Positions 1,145 to 45,859 of a stretch of 64,000 nt of DNA are shown piece by piece. Position 1 is the stretch's first letter. Each line of letters starts with the position of its first letter. The stretch is from Nemania diffusa. Taxonomy: Eukaryota > Ascomycota > Sordariomycetes > Xylariales > Xylariaceae. The position numbers were made by a program, and so were the translations under genes. The stretch is taken from assembly GCA_038501195.1 (NCBI GenBank), contig JBBPUQ010000004.1, positions 1,116,001 through 1,180,000 of the forward strand, written 5' to 3'. The notes under the pieces are model-generated. The model saw only the letters and a list, made by a program, of their open reading frames with translations. It was not told the DNA's origin and did not search any database.

Positions 1145-2557
1145 CTAATTCCACTGAATATGAATAAGGGGCGTAGAATATAAGCTAGTGCCTTCGAACG
1201 CATCGTTTTTCGTGTACGAAATATATATTTCGTTAGTTGCGGTACCATCCGGGTTGAGTCCCGGATGAGCTTGGAGCGAGTACGCCCCGAGATAATAACT
1301 ACCGGTCTGGCCTGAGTAAAAGTTGACGGGGCTCTCCCATGGCCCCGTGATGGAATCAGCCGTAGTGATGAAAAAATCAGCAGAGACACTGATGCCGGCC
1401 TTTGATAAGGATCAAGAGTTAGCAATGCTCACGGTCTTTGTAGTAAAAGGCGGGGGCGAATAGATGTACATAACATACGGGAAATCAAAGAAAATATACT
1501 TCACTTACTTGACCAATCCACACCCACTTATTCCAATAAGTTGAAAAGTAATAGGTGCCTTGTCCACCCGCGCTCACGTTAGGAATGCTAATATTTGCTG
1601 CATTTATAAGCGGCATACTCGATGTCCAGGCGTTATTAACCCAGTACTGATATTGAGACGAGTCCTCGATAGATCCTACGGGAACCTTGGCTAAAGAAAC
1701 AATGCCATTGGATGGTTTGCCAAACAGATATGCGATGCCATCCTGAATCACATTTCCGTAGGCACCGTAAGGAATGGGGGCATCGGGCCAAAAGTTCTCA
1801 TTTACGAGAGCAACCGTGGGCAAGACATTCAGATCTGTCGTGCTCAAATCATATGTTAACTTATAAAGCGAAGTCGCTGGATTCGGGTCGTTCGTGCTGA
1901 AGCTAAAGTAATGTAGATGTTACTACGCCGTTTATAGCCGAAGTGTTTTGCATGCTAGAACAATCTAGGGCGGGCCTCGACTTCAAACAAAGGATGTACC
2001 TTACTCACTGCGATATGGTAAGCATATAACGCAATTAAGGCTCAGACATAAGCCATTTTGGTACACACCTCTGAGTTAATATGTTGTTTGAGAATCCACG
2101 TGTATGCAGTGACGATATTATTGACAGTTGACGTGACTAAAGGAGGAGTGTCCGGCCAGATAGCGTAGCGGGAACCGTCCGCACATGTGCCCGCAGTGTT
2201 GCTATTACATTCACTCGCCGTGTAAGGGAAGTAGGGGTTCCGGCTGCCGCCGCCGCCGTACTGCTGGAGCCCCGGAGTGCCATCAGTGTTGAAATTTGAC
2301 CAACTCGCAGACGAGGCCCATATAGGCAGAACCGGGACGCCGTTACTGTCATAGGGCTGACTATCACGGCAAGTCCAAAAAGCACGGTTGCTAATCCGGG
2401 TTGACCCGCAAGAATCGCGATTGATCGCCGGATCGGCAACGTTTCCTATCAAAGTGGCATTTTTTACTGTTGGGGTAAACGCTCTCTTGTGGACGATGGC
2501 AGAGGACACCTCAGGCAGAAACAACGAACGGAGAAGAAGGCAAGCTAGCAACATCAT
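1145..2557 (-). CDS. Secreted DUF4185-family protein
   Basis: Three-exon model: 2557-2067, 1902-1509 and 1399-1145, giving 379 aa. The start is the double Met at 2557, followed by a hydrophobic signal peptide (about 20 residues, MMLLACLLL...). The second intron has a clean GTAAGT donor after a W-I-G-Q peptide and a CAAAG acceptor; the first intron (donor GTGTAC, acceptor TTTAG) is less certain. Repeated Trp/Tyr/Phe-rich strands, a G-P-W-E-S-P segment and an I-Y-I-S-Y-T strand near the C-terminus match the five-bladed propeller-like DUF4185 family, whose molecular function is not established. Expected to be secreted. A glycoside-binding or hydrolase role is only a guess from fold resemblance. 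Confidence 0.75.
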
Positions 2558-5063
2558 ATTAGCGATGAATATTGTCGAGAGCACAAGCAAAACTTGCGAA
2601 GAGAACTAACCACCGATTTTATGCTGCGCTTGTCGAATTAAGGCTTGAGACAGTTGGGATCTGGGATTAGATCCTACTAAGCCACCTACCTCTTTAGGGA
2701 TGGAGGAGCCATCATCTTACGCAGTGGGAACCTGGAGACGGTAGCATTGTGGTGGATTATTATCCAACTTTAGCATAACTTCATATAGGTCACTAGAATT
2801 GTCGATTGCTATATTCAACATCGTGGTAGTTCCTGGAGGAGGATCTGTTGTCGTCCGTTGGTCAGTTAAGCCCTCAGGTCAAGATCACCATCAAGTTCCA
2901 AGGGCGCGCCTAAGCTAGGTGACATGCGCGAAATGAGTGGCGCCATTATTAGCGCTAGCATCGATGTCAAGACGAGTGAATGAACGCCAGGTACTCTGTA
3001 GGATCCAATGATAGGGTGAGGCTAGAAGAAAATCGAAATCTTCGCGGTTAGATCGTCACGCGCCGATGCAGTGGATAGGAGAGCGTGCATAGGTGAGTGA
3101 TTCTTAATGCTAGCAAGCGCGATAGCGATCGCATATTGATACGAATTAGTATTGTGGATAGTTCTTGAAGCGAGCTCTTGGTGAAAGCTTCGACAGTTCG
3201 CAAATAGTTTAGAATGAGCAGGCATTTAAGGACGACGATAGGCCGATTGGTATAGGTTGATCGGTAGATGCATCTACCTAGTATTCTAGTAGGATGAAAC
3301 ACTAGATAGAAACCAAAATAATTTACATAGCGACTAGCGTCGGGAATAAGGATATCGCCGAAAATATACCCGCCTCCATCTCATGCATTGCAAATACCTT
3401 ATAAAATGTAAGCCTGAGAACTGCAGCTACCTAATACTCTTTTCATTCATATTTAGAGGAATTCACTCTAAAAAGACATGACATAGGTATTGTTGATCGA
3501 ATTATACTTAAGCCCGCTAGCAAATCTGCCATAGTTTATGTTTGATTCATAAAATGGGTTCAAATTTTCAAACACTCCCCTAATCTATCGAAGGTATGAG
3601 AAACTAGTAAGATAAGCAGCGCATTATTATGAGAAACCGTTATATAAGTCACAGACTTGGGGACAAACATACGTTTAACGAAGATTATTTGAAATGATCC
3701 ATATTGCTGCCTGTTACTGGATGAAAAAGAACGATTTAGGGACTATATAATTTTAAGCTTGTATGTGTGTTATTAAACGCCTATCGCTTATGGAATAAGT
3801 TACGCTGGAGGGGAAAACCAGATAAACATAACTAAGAATTAGGTACCTATAAACATACTTGTAGGTAGTCCCTATAAGCGCTTTTCACAGCGTGTAGTGA
3901 GTCGCATTGAATTGCGGGGAAGCGTTAATTCAGGGGTTCGTACCGTGTTCTCCGTACCACAGTTCGCTTAGGTACGGTATACCTATAGTAAGTACCACTA
4001 TATCATGTGAACAAGCAATTCTTATGGAGAAAACAAAGCTGTTCTCGTCACTTACTCGGTCGGGAGGTGCCAATAGACCTGTACCTACCTACTGGCCTTA
4101 CGAGAGGCTCTAAAGCTGAAGGCCCATTTATTTCTTTCCCGAAGACCGTAGCCGTGATGAGGCCATGCATCCACACAATCAGAGGTACCCCAGTCGCTAG
4201 CCCTTCAGCCCCACCATTCACTACCGCGATGACATCCCGTCTCCTTCTTGCCCGCTCTTATCCTCTGTCAGTCGTGACGGCCTGGCGATACAAGGCTCTT
4301 TGTCTCCTCACTGGGGCCTCTCGAAGGGATAGAACTGCCTGCTTAGTTAACCGAATAGCAAACCCAGTCCCACTCGCGCACGCCGTGTTACTCTATCTAC
4401 CTATCCTTTGTAGGCTTTCCGCCTTTCCGCCATCATTATGGATTCCGACGGGCCACCGCCAGCATCATCCCCCGGCTACCTAGCTGCGTAGTTTAACTAA
4501 ATAACACCCTTTACCTACCTACCTACCTACCTGCTTACATATCTTACATTGTCTATCTACCTATTGCTGTCGCCCCCTTGTCACGCACACCATCTTCCTA
4601 GTGGAGATGGAGCATTTCCCGACTGCTGGTGCCGTATTATCTCATCACATATAGGTAGCCGAGAGTTGACTGCCGCCTATATAATCGACGCAGTTAGCCG
4701 ACGCCCCGGGTTCGGGTATCTGTGACTATCTCACATGCCTGCTCATATTTAATAACCTCCTGCCGCGGCATCCCTGCGCTCCATTTACATTTCATTTGAA
4801 GGTTGAAGTTTCTTAATTCAACTTAATCAGCCCTGCATGAATTGGTCAATCGACTCTCACGTGCTGAGCAGATATACTTATGTTGCATTGAACACTTTGG
4901 ATACTATCGATCGAAGCCTCATCTAGCGGTCGATCATTTTTGCCTGTTTTATTTCTCTAAAACTAGCATTCAGCTACACTACTATTACGACCTTACTCGC
5001 GCATAGCTGCCGATCCCGTGTTCACCTCTTCATTATTGTGTTATACCGTGTACCGAGGTCACA
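2558..5063. other. Gene-poor intergenic region
   Basis: About 2.5 kb with no supported gene. Short frames between 3000 and 3300 (minus) and 3900-4483 (plus) lack recognisable domains, and the latter encodes a low-complexity Arg/Pro/Leu-rich peptide. A (CTAC)n tract lies at about 4512-4532. The last 200 bases before 5064 are pyrimidine-rich, consistent with a promoter and leader for the monooxygenase. Confidence 0.5.
4512..4532. repeat. (ACCT)n tetranucleotide tract
   Basis: About five consecutive CTAC/ACCT units. The same motif recurs in other intergenic parts of the window (about 46.8 kb, 61.75-61.82 kb, 61.92 kb), so it is a genome-wide intergenic signature rather than a gene-specific site. 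Confidence 0.7.
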
Positions 5064-7153
<2,090 letters not shown>

Positions 7154-7240
7154 AAGGCTGCCTAGCATAATATCAAACAGCAAGGCATAAAAACCTACAT
7201 TAAACCCATTTAATGAGTCATGCCATACTCACCTCATTCG

Positions 7241-7476
7241 AGTATTGAAGTCGGTAGGGTATGGACTAGCTGCCCCTTTTAGGAGGCGCAGCCTTCTATC
7301 TAAAAGCAATAGTAGTAAGAAGTAGCAAATATTACTAAAGGACATGTGTGTATTGTGTGTCTTTAGAAGTGAACAGTGTTCTCAACAACTTGTTAGAATT
7401 TGTAGCCCTTCTCATAGACCTACACAAGCCGCACTTCGGTACGGCTTGTATGGCTTAACAGTCTGCCCTACTTACA
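7241..7476. repeat. Dispersed LTR-like repeat, copy A
   Basis: This ~235-bp stretch shares an ordered series of matching blocks with 54821-55006: a TATTGAAGT..GGTAG start, CCCCTT(C/T)TAGGAGGC, CTAAAAGC, GTGTGTATTGTGTG, CCCTTCT, and an end of TGGCTTAA.AG.CT.CCCTA. Copy A carries an extra insertion of roughly 30-45 bp before the last block. It lies 3' of the monooxygenase gene. The size, lack of coding sequence and dispersal suggest a solo LTR or another non-autonomous element relic; the exact class is not shown. Confidence 0.65.
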
Positions 7477-7741
7477 CGTTCCAAACCTGCACTTTAAAGG
7501 AGCCGTGTTTATTGAGCCTTGATGAAAGTCTATAGAATTCGCGTGATCATAGATCAATGATATAATTATTGAAGTTCATTATAAAGCTACCGCAGGCCGC
7601 CAGCATTAATTCCGTGTAATTTTAAGACTTTGAATAGATAGGAATCTAGCTAACGAGATAGTAATACATAGTCTTCAGCTGAAGATCTCTGGTAAGAATA
7701 GAAATCACCTTCCCGATGCCTTCGAAGTGCTAGGAAGCTGC

Positions 7742-9625
7742 TTAGGAATCATTGAATGGCTGCAAATACACATCGCCATCAACCGTTGTCGTTAACGTCC
7801 CATTCGCCTCAAATATATTCACAAACGTATCCACCGAAAGATGGAACCCATCCTCGCTCGTCTTTTTCGTGCTGTTAGTCTCGCCCGTTTGCACGAGGTC
7901 AGAGTACCAATCACCAAGTTCGAGCGTGGGCGACGGGTTCGTCCGCGTATAGTTTTCGAATCCGTTTATGAAGTTGACACCGTCATCCGAGTAGTCACTA
8001 TATTCAACCGCTACGCTCTTGGTCGATGCGACGTTGGTGTTGTCCGTGATCGTCACCTTGGCAGATCCCGAAGCTTGCCCAACGAGCGTGTAAGTTCCTG
8101 GTGCAATATGAGGAAGAGAAGGCGCTGTCGCACCAGGGACATAGGGCGTTCCCCAGGGTACATAGTCGGACACCGGCTCCACGATCGGCAGAATATAAGG
8201 CTCACGGCTCGTGAGGGTCGCGAGCATGAAACGCACGAACCGAGCCCCGGGTTCGGTGGAGTCAGGGCACGGGAGGGGGTTCACCCCGCCACAGGCAGGC
8301 GACGCCGTCAGATCCTGCCAATACCCGATCTGCGTGCCATCCGGCGACCATTTAGGGTCAGCCCTGCCGTTCCACTCGGGGTCGTTGATCGCGCCGCTCC
8401 CGGCCACGCCGCTGCCCGCCTCGTTGATCTTCTGCCCGAAGTACTCGCCGCGGTCTCCGTAGCGGTCGATCAGGTACGGCTGGAAAAAGCGCCGCTGGTG
8501 GTTGTTCCGGATCGAGGAGGCGACGGTCGTGACGACTAGATCGATGAGGGGTGGGATGCCGCGCATGCCGGCCATGAAGAGCTGACGGCCGGATCCTCGC
8601 GTGTCCATGACTGCGGTCCATTGGTCGTCGGGCGAGATATCCACGGGGTCTACATATTCGGGGTGAGCTGTGAGTCGACGGACGGCGCCAGTGGCGAGCT
8701 CGGCGGCGTAGACGTCGATATTGCACGACTCAACTGAATAGCCGATATACGAAACCTCTCCTCCACGACCGCTGAAGCCTCGTAGCTCACCGACGGCGTT
8801 TGTAAGAGGATGAAACACTATCTCGTCGCCGTTGACGGTCCAGGGCGGAGTGTTGTTGGGGCTGTAGAGGATTGTGACGTTTACTAGGTCATATCTAGGG
8901 ACGAGGGGTTCGCCAGTAGTTGGAGATGGGTTGAATTGCAAACGCGAGAAGTAGCCAAACTGCGATATCACCCCATCGGAAGTTTCGAAAGAGCTAAAGC
9001 CAAGATGAACGTTGTCGGGATGTATTCTCAGCTCACGCATAGCACCACCAGCCCCTGAGCCATCTGGTGTAACATTCCATCGTATAGGATAGATGAAGGT
9101 ACGTTCTGGGGTGCAGTCTGAGCTCGTGAGAGAGAAGTCGCCACAGTCAACAATGTTCGTGCCGACTAAGAGACGCTTGCCGTCGTAAAATGAGTTCGGG
9201 TAGTCCCATGTGTCGCTTTTGCCAAGAGCGTTTTCGGTGGGAACACCGCATGTAACACATTTCCATGGATCTCCGTTGGGGAACGATGTATTATCAGTCT
9301 TGATCAAAATGATTTGAGAACCATTATAAATGCTAGCGGGATCAGGCGCCTCTGGCGCGCCAGTAAACGTGACGTAGGCCACGATATGGCGGCCGTCAGG
9401 CATAAAGCTGCCAGCCTGAAACCCTGCACCGTACACTCCTTGGGTAATGCATCCTGTTCCTCTAGGGTTGATATCTGGTGTACAGGAACCCGTAGCGACC
9501 GGCGGTAGTGGCAGCTCAACGATGGTAATTGGTTCCGGAGCTGGGGGATCTGGTGCTGCGGCGGTTGCAAGTCGTGCATGGAATGTACCAAGTACCGAGG
9601 TGGCTATGAGCCTGGATAAACGCAT
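7742..9625 (-). CDS. Secreted TolB/WD40-like beta-propeller protein
   Basis: A single 627-codon exon. The first ~23 residues (MRLSRLIATSVLGTFHARLA) form a signal peptide. Repeated blade-like strands follow, such as S-P-D-D-Q-W and K-W-S-P-D-G-T-Q-I-G-Y, the typical PDG/SPDG turns of six-bladed TolB-like propellers, over residues ~60-480. Two C-x2-C and C-P type cysteine pairs suggest disulfides. The last ~130 residues look like an Ig-like or carbohydrate-binding beta sandwich. Fungal homologues are generally annotated only as hypothetical propeller proteins; an enzyme function is not visible, and there is no GxSxG peptidase motif. A TATATAAAA box lies 190 bp upstream. The central part (8150-8720) is much more GC-rich than its surroundings. 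Confidence 0.85.
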   Translation of the reverse strand: MRLSRLIATSVLGTFHARLATAAAPDPPAPEPITIVELPLPPVATGSCTPDINPRGTGCITQGVYGAGFQAGSFMPDGRHIVAYVTFTGAPEAPDPASIYNGSQIILIKTDNTSFPNGDPWKCVTCGVPTENALGKSDTWDYPNSFYDGKRLLVGTNIVDCGDFSLTSSDCTPERTFIYPIRWNVTPDGSGAGGAMRELRIHPDNVHLGFSSFETSDGVISQFGYFSRLQFNPSPTTGEPLVPRYDLVNVTILYSPNNTPPWTVNGDEIVFHPLTNAVGELRGFSGRGGEVSYIGYSVESCNIDVYAAELATGAVRRLTAHPEYVDPVDISPDDQWTAVMDTRGSGRQLFMAGMRGIPPLIDLVVTTVASSIRNNHQRRFFQPYLIDRYGDRGEYFGQKINEAGSGVAGSGAINDPEWNGRADPKWSPDGTQIGYWQDLTASPACGGVNPLPCPDSTEPGARFVRFMLATLTSREPYILPIVEPVSDYVPWGTPYVPGATAPSLPHIAPGTYTLVGQASGSAKVTITDNTNVASTKSVAVEYSDYSDDGVNFINGFENYTRTNPSPTLELGDWYSDLVQTGETNSTKKTSEDGFHLSVDTFVNIFEANGTLTTTVDGDVYLQPFNDS

Positions 9626-32827: not shown

Positions 32828-34210
32828 TTAAGCACCAACACACACGTTATATCCCAGCCATAAGGTCCCGCAATTCGCGCCAACCTGCGGGTTCCACGTA
32901 TTGAACTGCGCGGCTGTAATCCCATATAGCTTCTCTATATCAGCACAGTACTGGTTTGCAACGACCTTGTGCCACTTCTTGCATGCACAGATGGCACCCG
33001 GTTGTGTCGGCGACGGTAGGCTTGCAGCCGTGCAACTTGGTACGGTGGTCATAGTTGTGGTAGGCGTGTGGCCGATGATGCTCACGCACACATATACACT
33101 AGCCCAGAGCCCCGTGCACGCCGAACCGCCGACCTGGGGATTCCAAGTCGTAAACTGCGCTAGGGTGATGCCGTTTTTGTCCGCGATCGCCTGGCACCCG
33201 TCGCCGCTCTGCACAAAGTAAAATGCATCGCAGTTAGACACCATACCAGGTTGAGTGGGGGTGGGCGTCGCAATGCCGTTCCCAGCTGAAGTTGTTGTCG
33301 TCGTCGTCGTGGGAGGTTTAGTGGGGGTGGTGGTAGTAGGCGTGTGACCGATAATACTGACGCACACATACACGCTAGCCCACAATCCGCTACACGACGA
33401 GCCACCAACTTGCGGGTTCCAGGTCGTGAACTGCGCCAGCGTGATCCCGTTTTTATCGGCGATAACCTGGCATCCGTCGCCGCTTTGTACGAAGTAAAAA
33501 GCATCGCAGTTAGACACCATGCCTGGTTGGATAGGTGTAGGCGTCGCTATGCCATTGCCCGTTGAAGTGGTTGTAGTCGATGTTGTTGGCATTGCAGTAG
33601 GCGTGCCGGGAATGCCTACACAGTAGTAGACCTTAGCCTGGAGACCAGTGCAGTCAGAGCCTACAGCAGGGTTCCATGCGTAGAAGTCAGAAAGGGTGAA
33701 GGTGCCGTATAGATTCACAATCTTGGTACACGTATCGCCCGAAGCGGCAAGGTAAAACGTTGTACACGAAGCAATGAGTCCATCCTGGGTAGGTGACGGC
33801 TTGGGAGTGCCAGTGATAGTGGGGGAGGAAGTAGTTGATGAAGTTGTCGTCGTAGGCTTCCTCGTTACCTCAACACAGTAAGAATTCCCAATTTTGATAC
33901 CGCTGCAATCTTGTAGAACGGATGGATTCTTTGAAGATTTTGTCAGTCTATTAAGTTATATTCGTTTTTTTCCTCTTTAGGAAAGATCACAAGAACATCG
34001 TCGTACCCACAAAACAAAGTCAGCGTGTGATACACCCCAGAAGCTCTCGAGGTAGGCGCAATTATCACTTGGACTGTAGACTGTATCGTAGTAGCTGCAA
34101 TCTGGGTCGGTGCTGGGATCGACTGGTCCGCTCTGACGCTTAACGCCGCGAGCGGAGCATGAAGTTACGATGCTGGCCACAGCCAGGAACGACAATGTAG
34201 TGTACCTCAT
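32828..34210 (-). CDS. Secreted LysM protein with five LysM modules
   Basis: Two exons, 34210-34007 and 33928-32828, total 434 aa. The intron falls inside the first LysM, between its L-W and N-P-S-V. A signal peptide (M-R-Y-T-T-L-S-F-L-A-V-A) is followed by five LysM modules at roughly residues 38-83, 122-173, 209-258, 300-350 and 385-434. Each has the fungal pattern C-x-x-x-Y...G-D-x-C...W-N-P-x-V...C-x-x-V-C-V. They are separated by Thr/Pro-rich, probably O-glycosylated linkers. No catalytic domain. LysM modules bind chitin or N-acetylglucosamine, so the protein likely sits in or on the cell wall or shields chitin fragments. Modules 3 and 4 with their linkers are almost identical at DNA level, a recent internal duplication. 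It is one of two LysM genes beside the large GH18 gene. Confidence 0.95.
33080..33508 (-). repeat. Tandem duplication of LysM module plus linker
   Basis: Two consecutive ~270-bp units (about 33508-33240 and 33235-33080 onward) encode nearly the same LysM plus Thr-rich linker. Only a few residues differ within the module (V/A, S/A, S/T). The similarity extends into the linkers (G-N-G-I-A-T-P-T-P and I-I-G-H-T-P). Confidence 0.85.
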
Positions 34211-36477: not shown

Positions 36478-37907
36478 TCAACGCGTCAAAGCTGGGGTCG
36501 CATCTGGATCTGCCAACAAATAACTAGGCGAACAAGTTATCGGGAAAGATGTGCTACCCAGCGGAGTCCCCGTCGGAATAGGCATGCAGTAGGGCGACAT
36601 CAGCTCCTGGCAATCTTGATTCAGCAGCTCCCAAGCGAAACCCGCGTCGTAGTCCTCGTCCTTAATGGGGCAATTGGCGAAATACTGCGTTGGCGCTGGA
36701 CCGGTTCCGGTGGCGACAGTAGAAGTCGGTATCGACCACTCGTATGAGGCCGTCGTCGCGTTGCCGAGGGGAGTGCCCGCCGTAGGTCCTGCAACCCAGG
36801 ATCCAGCAGGCAAGGTCCAAATGTCGTCAAAGCTCGCGGTCATGGTCACGTCGTATGAATCTGTTCCGGGGGGCCTGTTGAGTAGAGAAATACTGCATTA
36901 GCGGCGTACGGTGACATGGTGAAGTGATTAGACAGAGGGAGGGTATCTGGTTTGTGCCCTTACGATATGCAGATACTTCGACCCACCATGGTGGTCATGT
37001 CATCACAGTTGGTCTCTAACACGGGGTTCCACGCCACCAGTTCATTCATCGTGAAAGAGTGGGCTGCTAATATGCTTTTGCATGTGTCGCCTGGTTGGAC
37101 AGTGTATAGCTTGCAGCTGTCCCTGATGCACACAGTCATCCCTTGAGCTATGGCGGTACAGTTCGGGTCAATGCTGTTCAGCGCCAGAAAATTGTCTATG
37201 GCAAGATTGTTAGCCGCAGCGATGGACTCGCACCCATCGCCGCCTTTGATGGTATAGTACGTGCCGCCAAAGCAGGTCTGATTGGGCATTGGGGTCATAG
37301 TCGGCAAGGCAACCGACGAAGGTGTTGTGTACGGATATTTGGTCGGGGCGACTGCGCATGATGACAGAAGCGAGGAGTACCCTGATGGGGTGATCTTGCG
37401 GGCTCCAAACTCGGACGAGAGCATGCCAGCGAGGTATTTGAGCGTGCAGTCATCGCAGACCTGGGCCGTGTGGTTCACTACGCCCGGGAGGCAGAAGCCC
37501 GTTCCCATCGCCGACAGGCCAGTGAGGCACGCTGTGTCGTGAGCCCACTTGAGGGCCACAGCGATGTCATTACCTGACTGTGTGGTATTATAGCCAAAGT
37601 CGTAATCCACGTTACCGCAGCGCGTGTTAATGTTGGCTGCAAACGTATTCAACGACGTGGTGCATGTAGAGTTGCAGTATTCACTCAGAAATGTCGCGTT
37701 GAAGGGGAAGTCGTTCTCAAGCTCCGAAGCGTGGATGAGGCGAGGACCGCAGGTAATATCTGCAGCTAAACTCGCGCGACACGATGCCGGTATCGTGGCC
37801 GGCAGTGAACCTGGTGTCAAGAAGATATGGATAGCAGCAACGCCACTATTCAACAAGATAAGGGCCAGCCATATCGTCGCCATCTTCATCTCGATGCGAC
37901 AAGTCAT
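36478..37907 (-). CDS. Secreted protein with two LysM modules
   Basis: Two exons, 37907-36964 and 36874-36478, total 446 aa. The intron (donor GTAAGG, acceptor CAACAG) splices TC to G and keeps frame. Signal peptide within the first ~25 residues; starts at 37907, 37889 or 37883 are all possible. Residues ~40-200 form a cysteine-rich N-terminal domain (C-R-A-S-L-A-A-D-I-T-C-G) common in LysM proteins that neighbour subgroup-C chitinases. Two LysM modules follow (~215-262 with G-G-D-G-C, ~265-315 with P-G-D-T-C and W-N-P). The C-terminal ~130 residues are Pro/Thr-rich with four cysteines. It is divergent from the GH18-nuclease gene with a 922-bp shared upstream region, arguing for co-expression. 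Probably binds chitin in the wall. Confidence 0.92.
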
Positions 37908-38829
37908 GACTCGATTGGATAAGACTAAGAAAACTAGCTGAGTTGATGTCAGTTATGCTATCCTAAATGATGTGAGACAAAACACAAACTTGATGAGTGA
38001 ACTTGAGCTAGCTAACGATTATCAGTCTCTTATTAGTTGCTAGAACGAGGTTCGCTAATGCGCATTAGAAGCGATTCAAGCATACATCTGTACATGTAAA
38101 CTTATTTACTCCTTTTACCTCGCCATATGGAGGCGTTAGGTGAAATGCAGAGAGTCGATGATGCCAACCCCTTTGTGGTGTGTGAGGTTTGCCAAGTGGT
38201 GAGTTTGGGGGCTGTCCATATCAGGTATTATAGGTACTATGTCTAATATGTACACTGTGCAAAAGACTGCATGAGTACCTGCAGGAACACTCACGATATT
38301 ATAGCACACCCACACCATGTCAGCATCAGCGCCTTATTAATTATAGATTATTGGCGGTGAGGGGAGCGAAAGGTGCCAAGGCAAGAGATGCTCCAGATGT
38401 TCTCACCCTTGTCCTGTAGAACAGTTCAGGTGGGTTGCATGATCAAGTCTCAGAAGAGGTCGTGCGTTGGAGAAAAGGGGATTCTAGCTTGAAGCTTGTT
38501 AGCAGGCAATTCGGGCGAGAGTCCCTTTTCCGAGGATGCAGCTTGACGTGCTAGACGTTATAGGGTCTCTATTCGTGTTAAAGATATTTTAACTTAAGGA
38601 TGCAGAGTGATGCATCAAGAGAAGGTATGGATCCTGAGCCCCTGAATGATAATTATTCACCATTCTTTAATAGTTATATACTCAACCCGGCTTGTCTTAG
38701 AGTTGCTTGCTATGGCTACTGATCTTTGATCATACCGTTGCCACCCTGGGGAAACTGAGATATCTTTAAGATATGCTTTAGGACCTTTCCTGTTCCTACG
38801 GAAAGCCCACATTCATTACAATTTGCGCC
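37908..38829. other. Bidirectional promoter region, LysM / chitinase
   Basis: 922 bp between divergent LysM and GH18-nuclease genes. A TATATA element at 38675-38680 faces the chitinase gene. No ORF is supported. Confidence 0.5.
38675..38680 (+). promoter_or_regulatory. TATA-like element of the chitinase-nuclease gene
   Basis: TATATA 150 bp upstream of the ATG at 38830, in an otherwise AT-rich stretch, so only moderate support. Confidence 0.35.
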
Positions 38830-41800
38830 ATGTATTCGCCCAGTTCTCGTTTCCTTTCGGGCGTGATACTCTTCATCCTTTTCAAAGCCATCGCTGCACA
38901 ACAAGACTCAACCTGCAGTGTTGCTGTCCCGTGTAAATCCGGTTGCTGTAGCTCATCAGGTTTGTACACCAAATTCAGTTTCTTCATGCCTACTGAGAAG
39001 CCCGTTGAGCTGACTTATATATATCAGGCAAATGCGGCTTCGGCCCCGAGTTCTGTGACAAACCTGGGTAATTCCGCTACTGTCCTCTTCGGCCATATTT
39101 GACAGATCAGCCCGGCTGACAAAACCCATATAGATGCCAGGGAAATTGTGATGCCAAGGCTGAGTGTGGTCAGTATGCCTTGGAAGAAAACTTCAACTGC
39201 CCCCTGAATGTCTGTTGCAGGTAAGCTCGCTAGTCTTATACTAGTACGTTTGCTATGAAAAATAATGGTTAATAAAAGTTCTGTTTAGCAAGTGGGGTTT
39301 CTGCGGATTCGACGAGCTCTTTTGCAACTCAGAGTGCCAGAACAAGGGTGGCTGTTTGCCCGTCGTGTAAGTAATTACCCTACAAGATGCGAAGGCGCCG
39401 TCTATTCCACGGTCTATCTAACCGGAAGTGCTTTACCCGCAGACGACCAGGATGTAGTGAAAGTACGGATGCCATGTCGGCAGAAGTCCGGACCGCTTAC
39501 TACGGTGCCTGGAGTGCTGGGCGAAGCTGCAATGCTTTAGAGCCCGAGAGCATCCCGGCGGGAGTCCTCACCCATATCAATGTTGCGTTCGAGTATGTCT
39601 CAGCGGAGCACGAGATTACCGATATGGTAGGCCCGGTTGTTGGCCGGACATCTCGTCTTAAAAATATTTACTCTGGACTTCGTGTTAACATTGCTATCGG
39701 TAAGTCTTTGAAAAGTCTTAGCTTAAAAGCCGACCTCTATACTAGTATAAGATGAGCGAACTCGGCATAAATACTGTGGGAGTATCCTTATCATGCTAGT
39801 CAATTCCACGGGGTTGTCGCCATTTTCTGCTGCACTATCAACACGTATACTAATGCCAGCTGACTTTGCCTATAGGCGGGTGGACTTTCAACGACCCTCC
39901 TACGGCTACGCGTTTTTCAGACATGGCATCAACGGTCTCCAACCGCCAAACATTTATTAAGTCGCTTATCAAGTACATGAAGAAGTATGCATTAGACGGT
40001 GTTGATATTGGTATGGTGTCCCTAATGAATTGGTTTCCACTGAGAAGCTAATATTGTTCCCTCTCCTCAGACTGGGAATATCCCGTTGCCGATGACCGTG
40101 GTGGCATCGCACAGGATTTTGACAACTTTGTGTTGCTCTGCTCCAACATCCGAGACGCATTTGATTCATACGATGCCGGCTGGCAGTTAACTATTACTTT
40201 GCCGAATAGCTACTGGTATCTGCGGGGCTTTGATATTAAGAGACTTGAGGAGTATGTGGACTGGTTCAACGTCATGACTTATGACATTCATGGAATATGG
40301 GACCAGAAAAATATATGGACAGGCCCATACCTGAAGGGGCACACAAATCTCGTCGAGATCGAGACCGGACTTGACCTGTTATGGCGTAATGGCATCACGG
40401 CCGACAAGGTAGTCATGGGCTATGGCTTCTATGGGCGCGGCTTCACTATGACAGACTCGAATTGCCACGAGCCGCCAGACTGCACTTTTGACGGGCCGGG
40501 CTACGCGGGGGACTGTACAAATGAGCCCGGTATTTTGTCTTATAGTGGTATGTTCTATATTGTTCAAATCCTTGCCTCCCTATTTCCCTCTCTGCAGCTC
40601 TATGCCTCTCCTATGTTATTCTAGTCTCACAAATCTTAACAGAGGTCTCTGGATATAAGAATGAGCTAGGCTCAGTAACCTTCTACGACGAAGAAACCTC
40701 TGTGAAGTACATGGTCTATGGAGGGAATCAGTGGATCTCATGGGATGACGCCGAGTCCTTCAACGCCAAGAAGAAGTTTATGTTTAAGCGCTGCCTTAAG
40801 GGGCTGATGATTTGGGAACTTGGCTTGGACTCGGCTGGTTACGGCGCGCTTAGAGCTCTCTTCGGCGACGATGCGGTTGACAAGGGTCTCTCGGACACGA
40901 CGCTCAACCCGGAGGAGCAGGCACAGCTGGCCTTCGACCTCTCAGCGTACACGGGCCAGAATTGCTACGTAACGCAGTCCTGCACAAAAGGCGGCAGCGA
41001 CAATGCGCCCGACAAGATTTGCGGCTCTCCCGAATACTCTTCCGTTGCCGTCTCGCATAACCCTGTGCAGATGCTGACGTCCCGGTACGCCCTGCCATGT
41101 AAGGAGGGCGAGTATCACCACATCTGCTGCCCTACCAAAGCGAAACCCAAGAACTGCGAGTGGCTCGGGGCACCAGAGAGGAGTGCCTTTGGCTGCAATC
41201 GGGGATGTGGGCCGTCGCAGTTCGAGCTGACCACGGACACGTTCTACGATCAGTTTGGAGAGAAGAACTGCTTTTCCGGGTCACGAAGTGTAAGCCAGCC
41301 AATCATTTTGACTATTTCATTTTACTTTCCAATATTTATGTGTATGAAATATTCAACTGCCTGCTGACAATTCTTTCGCAACCGAATAGCTGTGCTGTGA
41401 CTCAACCGATATTCTCAGAAAGTGCCATTGGACTGACTGTGGCTTCGAAACAAGCGCAAATGGGAATTGCGCTGACAATGAAGTCACAGTAGCTACTCGT
41501 ATGGACTCAGAAACCGGCGGTAAGTTCTATACTCCCCTCGTCGCTTCTTTTGTCTCATCTCAATTAAAACTAGAGCCATCTTCCTAGAGTAGGATAACAT
41601 GGTCTCTCTAGAATAATCTCATGCATTCAAATGCGCTACTAACGTTACGAGCGGCAGAGACTTGCAAGTCACAAACAGGATTAGGAAATGGAGGCTCAAC
41701 AGGCCCCGAAACACATCAATGGTTCAGATCATATTGCTGTCCTAAAGACGATGCCTTAGAGGATTGCGAGTGGTCCAACGACCCATCTCGCTTTCCCGGT

Positions 41801-44800
41801 GCCTCAGTTATTGCTGCCCCTGTATGCGTGACTAAGGAATGCCCAAAAGATACATTGGCCATAACTGATGCTCTGTTGCCCGAGACCTTGTTCAACTTGA
41901 AGAAGGAGAATAATGATCCTTGTTTTTCATTTGTCAACTATCCAGGAACAACACCCGGGTTCCCCCTCTGCTGTGCGCCGCCATCTCGCTTCACTCATGA
42001 CTGGCCCGTAAACCCGGCATATCTCTGGAGCGGCGCTTGGACAGGCGACGATGATGATATTTCTTGGGAGTGGGCGGACAACTTTGGAAGTAACAACGCT
42101 GACACACACCCGGATAACTTGGAGACAGATCCTGGTGATGATCCGTATGGATTCGTCATGCTCGACGGCCCCCCAGGCTCTATTGCTAAGCAGTTCAACA
42201 AGCAATTCACCATCCTCACCCGAGATGCACCCACCGTATTCAAACCCAAAACCTATGTCACCACTAACCAGACCATCCTCGACGCAACATTCGAGCACAC
42301 AGAAGAGACAGTTCATGTTTATTGTAATTATGCGCACGACTCGAGGGAATGCAACGAGATCTTCCACAAAGGTGCCCGCGATACCATTATCAAGCTGCCC
42401 GAGCACGTCGGCGAAGGCCCATGGGCGCGTGTTGTGTCGATGGAGCCCGACTATGACCCGCCTAGCCTGCCGGCCTGGGCGATCCGCAAACGCGAGGACA
42501 CGACAAATAACAATGGCATCTACAGGTTAACATTTGATTACAACTTCCACCTCATTGAGCGTGCCGACACCGAACCCGTATACATGAGAGTCGACTACAC
42601 AAATCTGCAACAATACTGGTCAGAGGTTACGGACGAACCTATTACTAGCAAGGCCAAGCATAAGCGATCAGCCAAGTCCAACATGGATTTTCAGTCTTGG
42701 AAATCCCGCGTTGAGAGGGCCAAGAATGGCCCAATTACCGGCGGCGAAGATCACATGCATGACTTCCATGCCACTGGCGAAACTGACTTCGGCCCAGACG
42801 GCGAAGTGCCCCCTTCTCCGTATAGTTCCATTTCCAAAAACCATCGTCGCTGGGCCGGTACCTTTTTAGACTGGCTCAAGAAGATCACAACTATTACCAA
42901 ACAAGAGGCGGGCAAGCTTCCTATGGGTATCAGCAAGCTCTTTAATATCTACAGCGGTCGTCTGCGTTGTACCAACGATGCTGGAGTTACCATTACTGCA
43001 GGTCTCGACATCACGGCTGACGTGAGGCTAGACATGGGCGCCAAATACGCATACTATTTCTCCGGTACCGTCCTTCCGCCCAAAATAATTGACACATACG
43101 TCTATGTTGGTGCTCAGCCTAATGTCTACGCCGGCGTCACTTTCCGGGGCAACGCTTATTTAGGTTATAAAAGTGAGGTGCGCAAACTAGTCGAAACCAT
43201 CTCATATCCCGGTCTGTCCATCAAGGGAATAGCAACCGTAGGCCCGACGCTCGATGTCTGGGGTCAGATACAAGGTGACATCACCATCTCCGGTCAGCTC
43301 AAGGTCGGCGCTAGGTACACGTTCAACCAAATCGATCTATACCTTCCCAACAACGATGAAACGAAAGACAAGGCAAGCGATCAGCTTAAAGAGCTTGAAA
43401 AAGATCAAACGGGTCTCTCTCCAGTCTTCCAAGCTGACGTACGCGCAGATGTCGGTGTACACCTGCGCGTCACACCCGAGATCAATGTTGGCATCAAGGT
43501 AGGCGGCGGTATCGGCCCGCTAACCTCGCAACCGTTTCTCGACGCACACATCTCGGCCTTTACAAACACGTCATTGCACTTCCAAGCCCACGTCACGGCA
43601 GGAACGACAGGCGCGAAAAGCAACTGGGAGTATGGTTACAGTATCGAGCTGCTGTGGCGGGTTGGAATCGCCGCCGTCGTCCAGATCTATAACTACAAGG
43701 AGTGGCGTACCAATACATATTACCCTGTTGACTGGCAGACTATCCCAATATATGGGCCGATTGTGGTTAAGTCGGCTACCACGGCTGGGGCAAGGCGTGC
43801 TCTTGCGCTAGACGCAGCGGAGTCAGAGTCCTGGATATTGGCAGAAAAGGCATTGCCGAATCCTGTATTTGGATGGGCGTCAATGCGCCCGTACGATGCC
43901 CCCCCAGACACAAACAGTATTTACAACACATCGACTACAGACCTTGGCCTTCCCCTTTTTAAACGTCAGCAGTCCACCATGGAAAGGGAGTTCAAACTTG
44001 GCGACTTTAAGTGCACAACAGGAGGCTCCTCGGCCTGCGACACAGACAGCCTTGACCAACGAAGCCTTAGTAACATGATGCCCGTAACTGGTCGTCGAAA
44101 CGGCCGATCTCGAGTAGTGAAGATATCGAAAAGAGCTGGGTCCGACTGCAGGCTAAAAATCCCACGCATCTACTGTAAGTCAAGCCAAGTCAGTCCCTAA
44201 GTCCTTCTACGCTCCTATTTCATGTAACTGACCGCATATAAATTGTATAGTCAACTGTGGAACCTTCTTCGGCGACGTAGCTCTCACGGGCGCAAACGGC
44301 CAAGTCACTCTCCCCGGTATATGCAGCAGTGCACGCGCGTATCTTTTCAACAACGGCATCATCACAAACCAGATAAAGCTAACATTCGATCCCAATAATC
44401 GCGGCACCCGCAACTCGCAGTCTTGCGGAGGTGCGAGAAACATTTGCTCAGCTGGCGGTGAAAATAATCTCAGGAAGATGCAGCTCGGTGCCCCATATGA
44501 CAGCATCCGGACCCTTGTCAACTGCGATGAGTTTCCTTTCGCATCGACTGAGGAGGGTGGTTATGGGTGGGCTGGTAACGATCGAGGTCTTGCTCCGACT
44601 AACCCTGTTGGCACTACAAGGACGTGTGTGCCTGAGTGGCAGAATAGTCTTCAAGGCAATTGTGTTTGTAAGTCTCCCCCGTGTTTCATTTTATCAGAGT
44701 CAGTCTTTAGGCTTGTTACTTTTTATAAATACTCATACTTACCGTACCTAGCCCTCTTGGGCAATATTGAATCGAACGTCGAGTACTTCAATAACGCTGC

Positions 44801-45420
44801 CATGGCCAATGACGACCCCAACGCGGCCAATTGGCAAAGCTGGGATTCCAATAATGCCGGGTGGAACAGGAAAGAAGCATTCGCAACAGCGGGAAAAGGT
44901 CGACAGCGTCTATCTAGATATCTCACTGACCAGCCTGTCCCACTGAGTGGACAAGACGCAAATGTAAGTGTGCCTTTACCTACCTGTCTCCTCCCGAGTC
45001 AACCGCCCTCACTCTCGATACCTAACTAAGTGTCACACACATCTACTATCAATCAAATACAATCTGACCCCTATTTCCTTTTCTCGTAAACAGGAAAAAG
45101 CCGATAGATCACTCAGTTGGTACCACAAGCGCAACTTCACGATGTACCTCGTCAACAACGATGGCCACATCGCAGCTGCGTTCCCCGGACACACGTCAGC
45201 GACGGGAACTCTAGTCAGCAACACGGGCGCTCAGAACACCAACCTCAACGACGCGACATGGATCATATGTGCTATCAGTCTGCGCGGCCAGCAGCGCTAC
45301 CGGTGGGGGCCCAACAAAGACGGAAGCGTTAAACATAACGGGTACTGCTGGGACGGCGTCACGACGAGGCCCGTCTGGGGCGGGGTCGGCAATTTCGTAG
45401 TCATTTGGTATTTCTCGTAA
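38830..45420 (+). CDS. GH18 subgroup-C (killer-toxin-like) chitinase with C-terminal NucA/NucB-like nuclease domain
   Basis: Thirteen exons: 38830-38959, 39028-39067, 39134-39220, 39289-39366, 39443-39699, 39876-40010, 40071-40547, 40643-41289, 41390-41519, 41658-44174, 44251-44667, 44752-44963 and 45094-45420. The total is 5454 nt, exactly 1818 codons. Signal peptide (~1-23); cysteine-rich chitin-binding type-1-like modules (~28-110, e.g. C-C-S-S-S-G and C-G-F); GH18 barrel (~125-475) with intact catalytic D-G-V-D-I-D-W-E across the sixth intron; a cysteine-rich stretch (~500-750); a long beta-rich middle region (~750-1480); then a domain with C-D-E-F-P-F-A-S-T-E-E-G-G (~1590), the signature of NucA/NucB-type secreted nucleases. 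Lys-Arg sites occur near 42655, 43961 and 44130, the last just before the nuclease. The architecture recalls zymocin, whose chitinase subunit delivers a nuclease subunit. Annotated as a predicted toxin-like secreted protein; activity is unproven. The stop codon overlaps a GTAAGT donor, so a further exon is possible. Confidence 0.88.
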
Positions 45421-45499
45421 GTTTTGACCACTTGAAGTCCTGCAAACACAAATTCTCTCGTGGAAATATTACCTAGCTACCAATGGATAGCATAAACAC

Positions 45500-45859
45500 A
45501 TGGAAGCTAATTATTGGGGTCGGCCCCCTTTTTATAGTTGCGATATTGATTTTGACGGCGCGCCACACCAGAAGCGAGGAGAGACGCCCGAGCCTATTGG
45601 GTTTTATGGAGGGGAGCCGATTTATGGTAAGTTTGCCTTACATTACTGTCTAAGTTGCTCTCCCTATTTGAGCTCCAGGCAAGTGCAGCTACTAGCTTCC
45701 AAAAGCTAGTAATAATCGAACAAGCATTTAGCTAACCTATATGCTTGTAAATTTAGGCATTAAGAGGGTTGAGGATGGGGACTGGAAGCGCGTCTTAATT
45801 AATCCAGAAGACGCGCCTCTACCTGACCTGCGTGAATCATTTCCGCTGAGTACCTAACA
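45500..45859 (+). CDS. Small downstream ORF or extra 3' exons of the chitinase-nuclease gene
   Basis: Two blocks, about 45500-45628 and 45757-45859, with a GTAAGT donor (about 45629) and a TTTAG acceptor. In one frame, starting at ATG 45500, they encode a ~76-residue acidic soluble peptide (E-P-I-G-F-Y-G-G, then G-D-W-K-R-V-L-I-N-P). In another frame, reached by splicing from the GTAAGT that overlaps the upstream stop to an acceptor at about 45494, they would add a hydrophobic, membrane-helix-like segment. The first reading stays open longer and looks more protein-like. It lies 80 bp after the nuclease domain, so it is either a terminal part of that protein or a small separate gene. Sequence alone cannot decide. 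Confidence 0.4.

Follow-up and report, generated by a model that had tools for sequence, protein, structure and literature searches.

The 64,000-nt window of Nemania diffusa DNA analysed here (nt 1116001–1180000 of contig JBBPUQ010000004.1) carries on its plus strand, at nt 38830–45857, a gene of 15 exons encoding a protein of 1879 aa in which chitin-binding modules, a GH18 chitinase domain, a long middle region and a C-terminal NucA/NucB-type nuclease domain are joined in one chain. The gene and its domains are firmly established. With a probability of roughly one half, we consider the product, judged from its sequence, to be a chromosomal, single-chain, zymocin-like killer protein carrying a DNase payload that would be released by the protease Kex2; its delivery into another fungus and its role as a weapon are what we infer from this architecture. 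An earlier note on the same DNA had read the domains as a killer-toxin-like chitinase fused to NucA/NucB, and its reading was borne out by profile searches with PF14040, GH18 and chitin-binding models: all three kinds of module, in one open frame as it had claimed, scored above their Pfam cut-offs, and the catalytic residues of both the GH18 and the nuclease domain, which it had called active-looking and intact, were present.

Pfam scores were computed on a 13-exon version of the protein against the curated cut-offs. The N-terminus was signal-peptide-like and hydrophobic (about aa 1–24, nt 38830–38901, recognised by eye and by a hydrophobicity peak, the most hydrophobic 19-residue stretch beginning at aa 5), and no other transmembrane-like segment was found in the protein (best 19-residue mean 1.09, near aa 1320). 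It was followed by a chitin-binding region with 17 Cys (about aa 25–120, nt 38902–39467), where Chitin_bind_1 (CBM18) matched in two stretches with 40.2 bits (cut-off 27.8), and by the GH18 domain (aa 130–464, nt 39495–40830), with 208.8 bits (cut-off 29.6). The GH18 catalytic motif DGVDIDWE (aa 238–245, nt 39995–40078), seen in the protein sequence and in alignment, spans intron 6. A search for relatives returned 979 proteins at E ≤ 0.001, well beyond what chance would produce, and the comparisons below cover the best 120 of these; in 113 of the 114 listed proteins covering the position (120 aligned), the catalytic Glu was retained. The remaining one, P0017 (Seiridium cardinale), has NGIDLVWD in its place and possesses a nuclease core, CDEFPFAGSMEGG. 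CBM18 modules followed by a GH18 domain with its catalytic motif are the hallmark of subgroup C killer-toxin-like chitinases, to which the window protein thus belongs; LysM modules gave no Pfam match in it at E ≤ 1, so that it was not classed as subgroup C-II.

The nuclease cargo occupied aa 1487–1815 (nt 44135–45411), as delimited with Pfam and a nuclease profile. PF14040 (DNase_NucA_NucB), whose failure to match would have undone the earlier reading, scored 35.0 bits for the whole protein and 36.3 for the domain at aa 1554–1641 (cut-off 23.8). Its core, CDEFPFASTEEGG (aa 1591–1603, nt 44523–44561, from the protein sequence and alignment), includes Asp1592 and Glu1593, and Asn1631 (nt 44643–44645), placed by its spacing to the Glu, is the candidate for the metal-ligand position of NucB. 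Mutation of residues equivalent to Asp93, Glu94 and Asn117 is reported to abolish the activity of Bacillus NucB (PMC5758888). The NucB Glu-to-Asn spacing of 23 was also found at the aligned column in the short-looped relative P0076, with Gln, and in a small nuclease gene on contig C8 of the same genome, with Asn; of 84 relatives, 44 had Asn and 40 had Gln at this column. The Cys-Asp-Glu core was retained in all 86 nuclease domains covering it (95 aligned, 9 gapped there), a conservation that is partly built in because 52 of the 95 domains had been picked as profile seeds by that motif. In an alignment of eight nuclease sequences the invariant columns contained no His that would correspond to His53, the residue that holds the Asp in NucB. 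The window domain resembles the bacterial NucA/NucB DNases in its Asp-Glu core and equally spaced Asn, but differs in being attached to a long chitinase chain as its C-terminal part and in its region of about 330 aa, versus 110 in mature NucB.

Between the GH18 and nuclease domains lay about 1,000 residues (aa 465–1486), which revises the figure of some 700 given in the earlier note. This stretch comprised a cysteine-rich region without Pfam match (aa 465–779, nt 40831–42013; 24 Cys in aa 465–780), a beta-rich region (aa 780–1345, nt 42014–43711) recognised by predicted strands and a weak match to DUF7223 below the cut-off, with seven predicted beta strands of 19–30 residues each in its second half, and a linker (nt 43712–44134). 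Sequence comparison showed the cysteine-rich and beta-rich regions to be common to ascomycete and basidiomycete relatives. When identity to the window protein was compared part by part in nine relatives, the GH18 domain was highest in eight, the exception being P0044 with a slightly higher value in the chitin-binding region, and the linker was lowest in eight, P0009 being lower in the tail; for P0002 the identities were 76% for GH18, 54% for the cysteine-rich region, 68% for the beta region, 41% for the linker and 58% for the nuclease.

The usual sites of Kex2 are KR and RR. The linker possessed three such candidate sites, KR at aa 1429 (nt 43961–43966), RR at aa 1473 (nt 44093–44098) and KR at aa 1485 (nt 44129–44134), the last immediately preceding the nuclease. 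Linkers could be delimited in 59 of 122 proteins and were compared with 500 composition-preserving shuffles: KR occurred 105 times versus 18.5 ± 4.1 after shuffling (maximum 33), counts that are not independent events since the proteins are related, and its density was 1.37 per 100 residues, versus 0.51 in the preceding part. At least one KR was present in 55 linkers, and KR or RR in all 59. Among the carriers of a second, unrelated cargo described below and termed EH (15 linkers delimited of 17), KR and RR together numbered 52 versus 8.8 ± 2.9 (maximum 19). Both the NucA/NucB and the EH class thus show an enrichment of dibasic sites in the linker.

The closest named relatives among the matches listed, from Astrocystis, Xylaria and Hypoxylon, shared 61% to 63% identity with the window protein, and two relatives, P0057 and P0063, are labelled by their depositors as killer toxin subunits alpha/beta. 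PF14040 was tagged on 70 of the 120 listed relatives, and the GH18–NucA/NucB fusion is common among the Ascomycota in databases and not new to them. The earlier description of a nuclease cargo as little described held for the Creative Commons-licensed PubMed Central (PMC) papers searched; in the databases such fusions abound, and a version with a partial NucA/NucB domain on Debaryomyces hansenii linear plasmids is in print (PMC8472843), the only report, within those papers and the parts of them covered, to join GH18 with NucA/NucB. The words "NucA" and "nuclease" were not found in the main text of a 373-genome chitinase survey (PMC8042737).

As the earlier note had suggested looking for, homologous carriers with a different C-terminus were found, in basidiomycetes and in one paralogue of the same genome. 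The nuclease profile matched 95 of 121 proteins (that of the window and the 120 listed). The 26 misses comprised one insect chitinase, eight short models that we take from the depositors' names to be ascomycete, and 17 carriers likewise presumed to be basidiomycete. These 17 aligned to the window protein as far as residues 1262–1376, seven of them as two segments on either side of a central gap, and their C-termini, 207–538 residues past the aligned part, matched nothing in it (best E 0.27). Most of these C-termini were related to one another, with an invariant E-H ... N..K pattern (14 proteins; 8 in a second alignment), after which the domain was named EH. An EH profile built from 14 carriers matched 16 of the 17, including P0113 and P0116, which had not contributed to it, and missed P0118 only; the remaining 107 proteins of a set of 124 gave no match. 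The NucA/NucB and EH profiles did not match each other in hhalign (probability 0.2). EH is a protein family for which no Pfam, NCBIfam or solved-structure match was found. A two-cargo family with a common carrier and common candidate cleavage sites was not described in the parts covered of the papers searched.

The paralogue, on contig C9 (L013, nt 1606–6668), shared 37% identity with the window protein in GH18 and 23% in the middle region, and its C-terminal EH domain was the sole match (E 2.3e-7) of the EH profile among 1264 open reading frames from the window and four loci of the same genome (L013 to L016); no match was obtained in three further loci. When a FastTree phylogeny was built on the beta-rich region from 121 sequences over 364 columns, with 16 of the 17 basidiomycete proteins represented, all 17 EH carriers, the C9 paralogue among them, were separated from the 104 others, which include short models without nuclease, with a support of 0.968. 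A previous tree, based on a short portion of GH18, had given no resolution between EH and NucA/NucB carriers. The present tree contains long branches, that between L013 and the sequence closest to it measuring 3.9, so that long-branch attraction is possible. Judged from these sequences, cargo appears to track the carrier lineage. This favours one or more changes of cargo long ago over frequent shuffling, and the exchange of cargo looks old.

In carrying different C-terminal domains on a shared carrier with a candidate processing site between them, the family resembles bacterial polymorphic toxin systems, EH being only a candidate toxin. It differs from them in that no immunity gene was seen at the window gene and in that cargo exchange looks old and rare, frequent exchange by recombination not being what the carrier tree indicates. 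A survey of polymorphic toxins regards the killer toxins of yeasts as their closest eukaryotic counterpart; the word chitin was not found in the part of it searched (PMC3482391). Tentatively, a wider reading may be offered, to which we give about half the weight of the killer-protein reading: the family would be a chromosomal, single-chain fungal counterpart of the polymorphic toxins, with an ancient chitinase and beta-domain injector whose payload would be, in many Ascomycota, a NucA/NucB DNase and, in Basidiomycota together with part of the Ascomycota, a domain of the new EH...N..K family, which may be a second metal-dependent nuclease; release by Kex2 would take place in the producer's secretory pathway, a divergent LysM gene would shield the wall, and the yeast linear-plasmid toxins would be an offshoot of an older nuclear system. 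If this is true, eukaryotes would gain a common nuclear system comparable to the polymorphic toxins.

Among described systems, the nearest are zymocin and PaT, killer toxins of yeast linear plasmids in which a chitin-binding and GH18 carrier goes with a nuclease cargo, gamma or Orf2p; the latter is reported to cut both DNA and tRNA (PMC3775755). The window gene shares with them the chitinase carrier and nuclease cargo, but its cargo is of NucA/NucB type and covalently joined in one chain, not a separate gamma subunit. It also lies inside a large contig (C4) of a 55.6-Mb assembly and contains 14 introns, unlike a cytoplasmic linear plasmid, and no immunity gene was recognised. ORF2p of pDH5A and related proteins of D. 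hansenii linear plasmids are a further parallel, ChtBD1, a full GH18 and a NucA/NucB fragment being described in one 1226-aa protein; they differ in their cytoplasmic plasmid and in possessing a fragment of the nuclease domain only, the likeness being drawn from that description (PMC8472843). The same report found the plasmids uninvolved in biocontrol of two blue-cheese fungi. Subgroup C chitinases of filamentous fungi, including those of class III with Hce2, share with the window gene CBM18, GH18 and an adjoining LysM gene, and a GH18–Hce2 version exists in the same genome. Group C chitinases have been likened to zymocin alpha/beta, with the hypothesis that they make way through the wall for antifungal molecules (PMC8715425); the literature on them, in the parts covered, describes permeabilising of the wall for other molecules and, unlike the window gene, no nuclease cargo of their own.

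If the window protein acts as a killer, it would be secreted, and its chitin-binding and GH18 parts would attach to a neighbouring fungus by its chitin and cut this chitin; Kex2 would cleave between carrier and cargo, the beta-rich region may mediate membrane passage, and the C-terminal domain, likely delivered into the neighbouring cell, would cut DNA there. With carrier and cargo in one chain, this is directly testable in a laboratory mould, since the Aspergillus nidulans relative P0044 (depositor name AN0517.2) has the nuclease core.

The main rival, to which we give about one chance in three, is digestion: a fused chitinase and DNase would co-degrade dead hyphae, insect cuticle or extracellular DNA, with no delivery into living cells. 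The same genome does contain a small stand-alone secreted-type NucA/NucB gene, and the relatives listed include lichen fungi, Aspergilli and Beauveria. NucB itself has been described as a biofilm-degrading endonuclease (PMC5758888), and in Pestalotiopsis kenyana a NucA/NucB domain is reported on a protein of the GH55 family (PMC12590764), which implies that the nuclease may also ride other wall hydrolases. On the other hand, a shared middle of about 1,000 residues without known catalytic domain is not obviously required for digestion, and two further points speak against it: the carrier also bears a cargo from a second family, and the linkers of both classes contain dibasic sites.

It is unlikely, though less so than an error of annotation, that the same domain logic serves a weapon or effector aimed elsewhere, whether at bacteria in biofilms, at cells of insects or plants, or at incompatible hyphae within the species. 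Such a role would fit the Hce2-plus-GH18 protein Pa_5_1150 of Podospora, with a fold change of 3.07 in incompatibility (PMC3689799), and the presence of LysM and subgroup C chitinase genes across fungi of many life styles (PMC4392113), but the chitin-binding and chitinase parts indicate a chitin-walled or chitin-covered target.

The killer-protein reading is also favoured by a LysM neighbour. A secreted-type LysM protein with two LysM stretches is encoded divergently about 0.9 kb upstream of the chitinase gene (nt 36960–37907, or 36963–37952 in a second delimitation; minus strand, start codon uncertain), and a second LysM protein gene lies further upstream (nt 32831–33955, minus strand). In the look for an adjacent immunity gene, a LysM gene was all that was recognised beside the chitinase gene. 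LysM genes adjoin subgroup C chitinase genes also in Trichoderma (tal6/tac6; PMC4392113) and in Clonostachys, where lysm2 is next to the killer-toxin-like chitinase gene chiC1 and a role in hyphal protection has been proposed (PMC7176902). By analogy, the divergent LysM gene may shield the wall of the producer itself. Tal6, however, is described as having no protective activity (PMC4392113), which counts against a general LysM shield.

That chitinase and nuclease are two genes joined by a faulty model can be virtually dismissed, even though a model that ended inside intron 13, as the earlier one did, shows that models are fallible: all 14 introns preserve one frame, fusions are recorded in many separate genomes among the matches listed, and the homologue P0001, 99% identical, unites all parts on a contig of 6217 nt, versus the 7028-nt genomic span. 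The exons lie at nt 38830–38959, 39028–39067, 39134–39220, 39289–39366, 39443–39699, 39876–40010, 40071–40547, 40643–41289, 41390–41519, 41658–44174, 44251–44667, 44752–44963, 45094–45416, 45538–45626 and 45757–45857 (including the stop), placed by splice sites, frame, P0001 and a genome search with P0001; each intron is GT...AG, and the frame is open across 1879 codons. The 13 exons and the end at nt 45420 of the earlier note were superseded, its stop (nt 45418–45420) lying at the start of intron 13. Exons 14 and 15 add 62 residues, common to P0001, and were also matched when P0001 served as the genome-search query; together with the nuclease-profile match to the reading frame of exon 14 (E 0.00012) and the P0001 alignment, they define a C-terminal tail (aa 1816–1879, nt 45412–45857), most of which lay outside the earlier model. 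A separate-looking downstream reading frame (nt 45491–45709) was rejected as an adjacent gene because it holds exon 14. P0001 differed from the 15-exon protein at 18 of 1879 residues. Its contig (source code "lgn") is shorter than the genomic span and must lack the bulk of the intron sequence, which totals 1388 nt, and is thus probably cDNA-derived; this supports the splicing, and the junction of nuclease and chitinase in P0001 disposes of the prospect that the nuclease exons form a separate gene.

Elsewhere in the genome, GH18 matched 25 exon-sized places and the NucA/NucB profile at least two, the window gene and the small C8 gene (L016, nt 4414–4830), which scored 92.8 bits with PF14040 against 35 for the fused domain. 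The GH18–Hce2 chitinase (L015, contig C7, nt 2735–6506; 102 bits for its C-terminal Hce2 effector domain) had only aa 79–465 in common with the window protein by tblastn. A third paralogue (L037, contig C3, nt 5269–8936) had aa 16–467 in common, with 41% to 59% identity in the chitin-binding and GH18 domains; its C-terminus differs, two pieces of it having been scanned with Pfam and neither matching, and one of its reading frames contains a C-Q-R-D-E motif that recalls the D-R-D-E motif of NucB. A polyketide-synthase-like reading frame, recognised by eye, adjoins the L013 carrier on the opposite strand. On contig C11 (L014, nt 4530–4997), a lone piece of the carrier middle region, with no GH18 match in the stretch fetched, is perhaps a gene relic.
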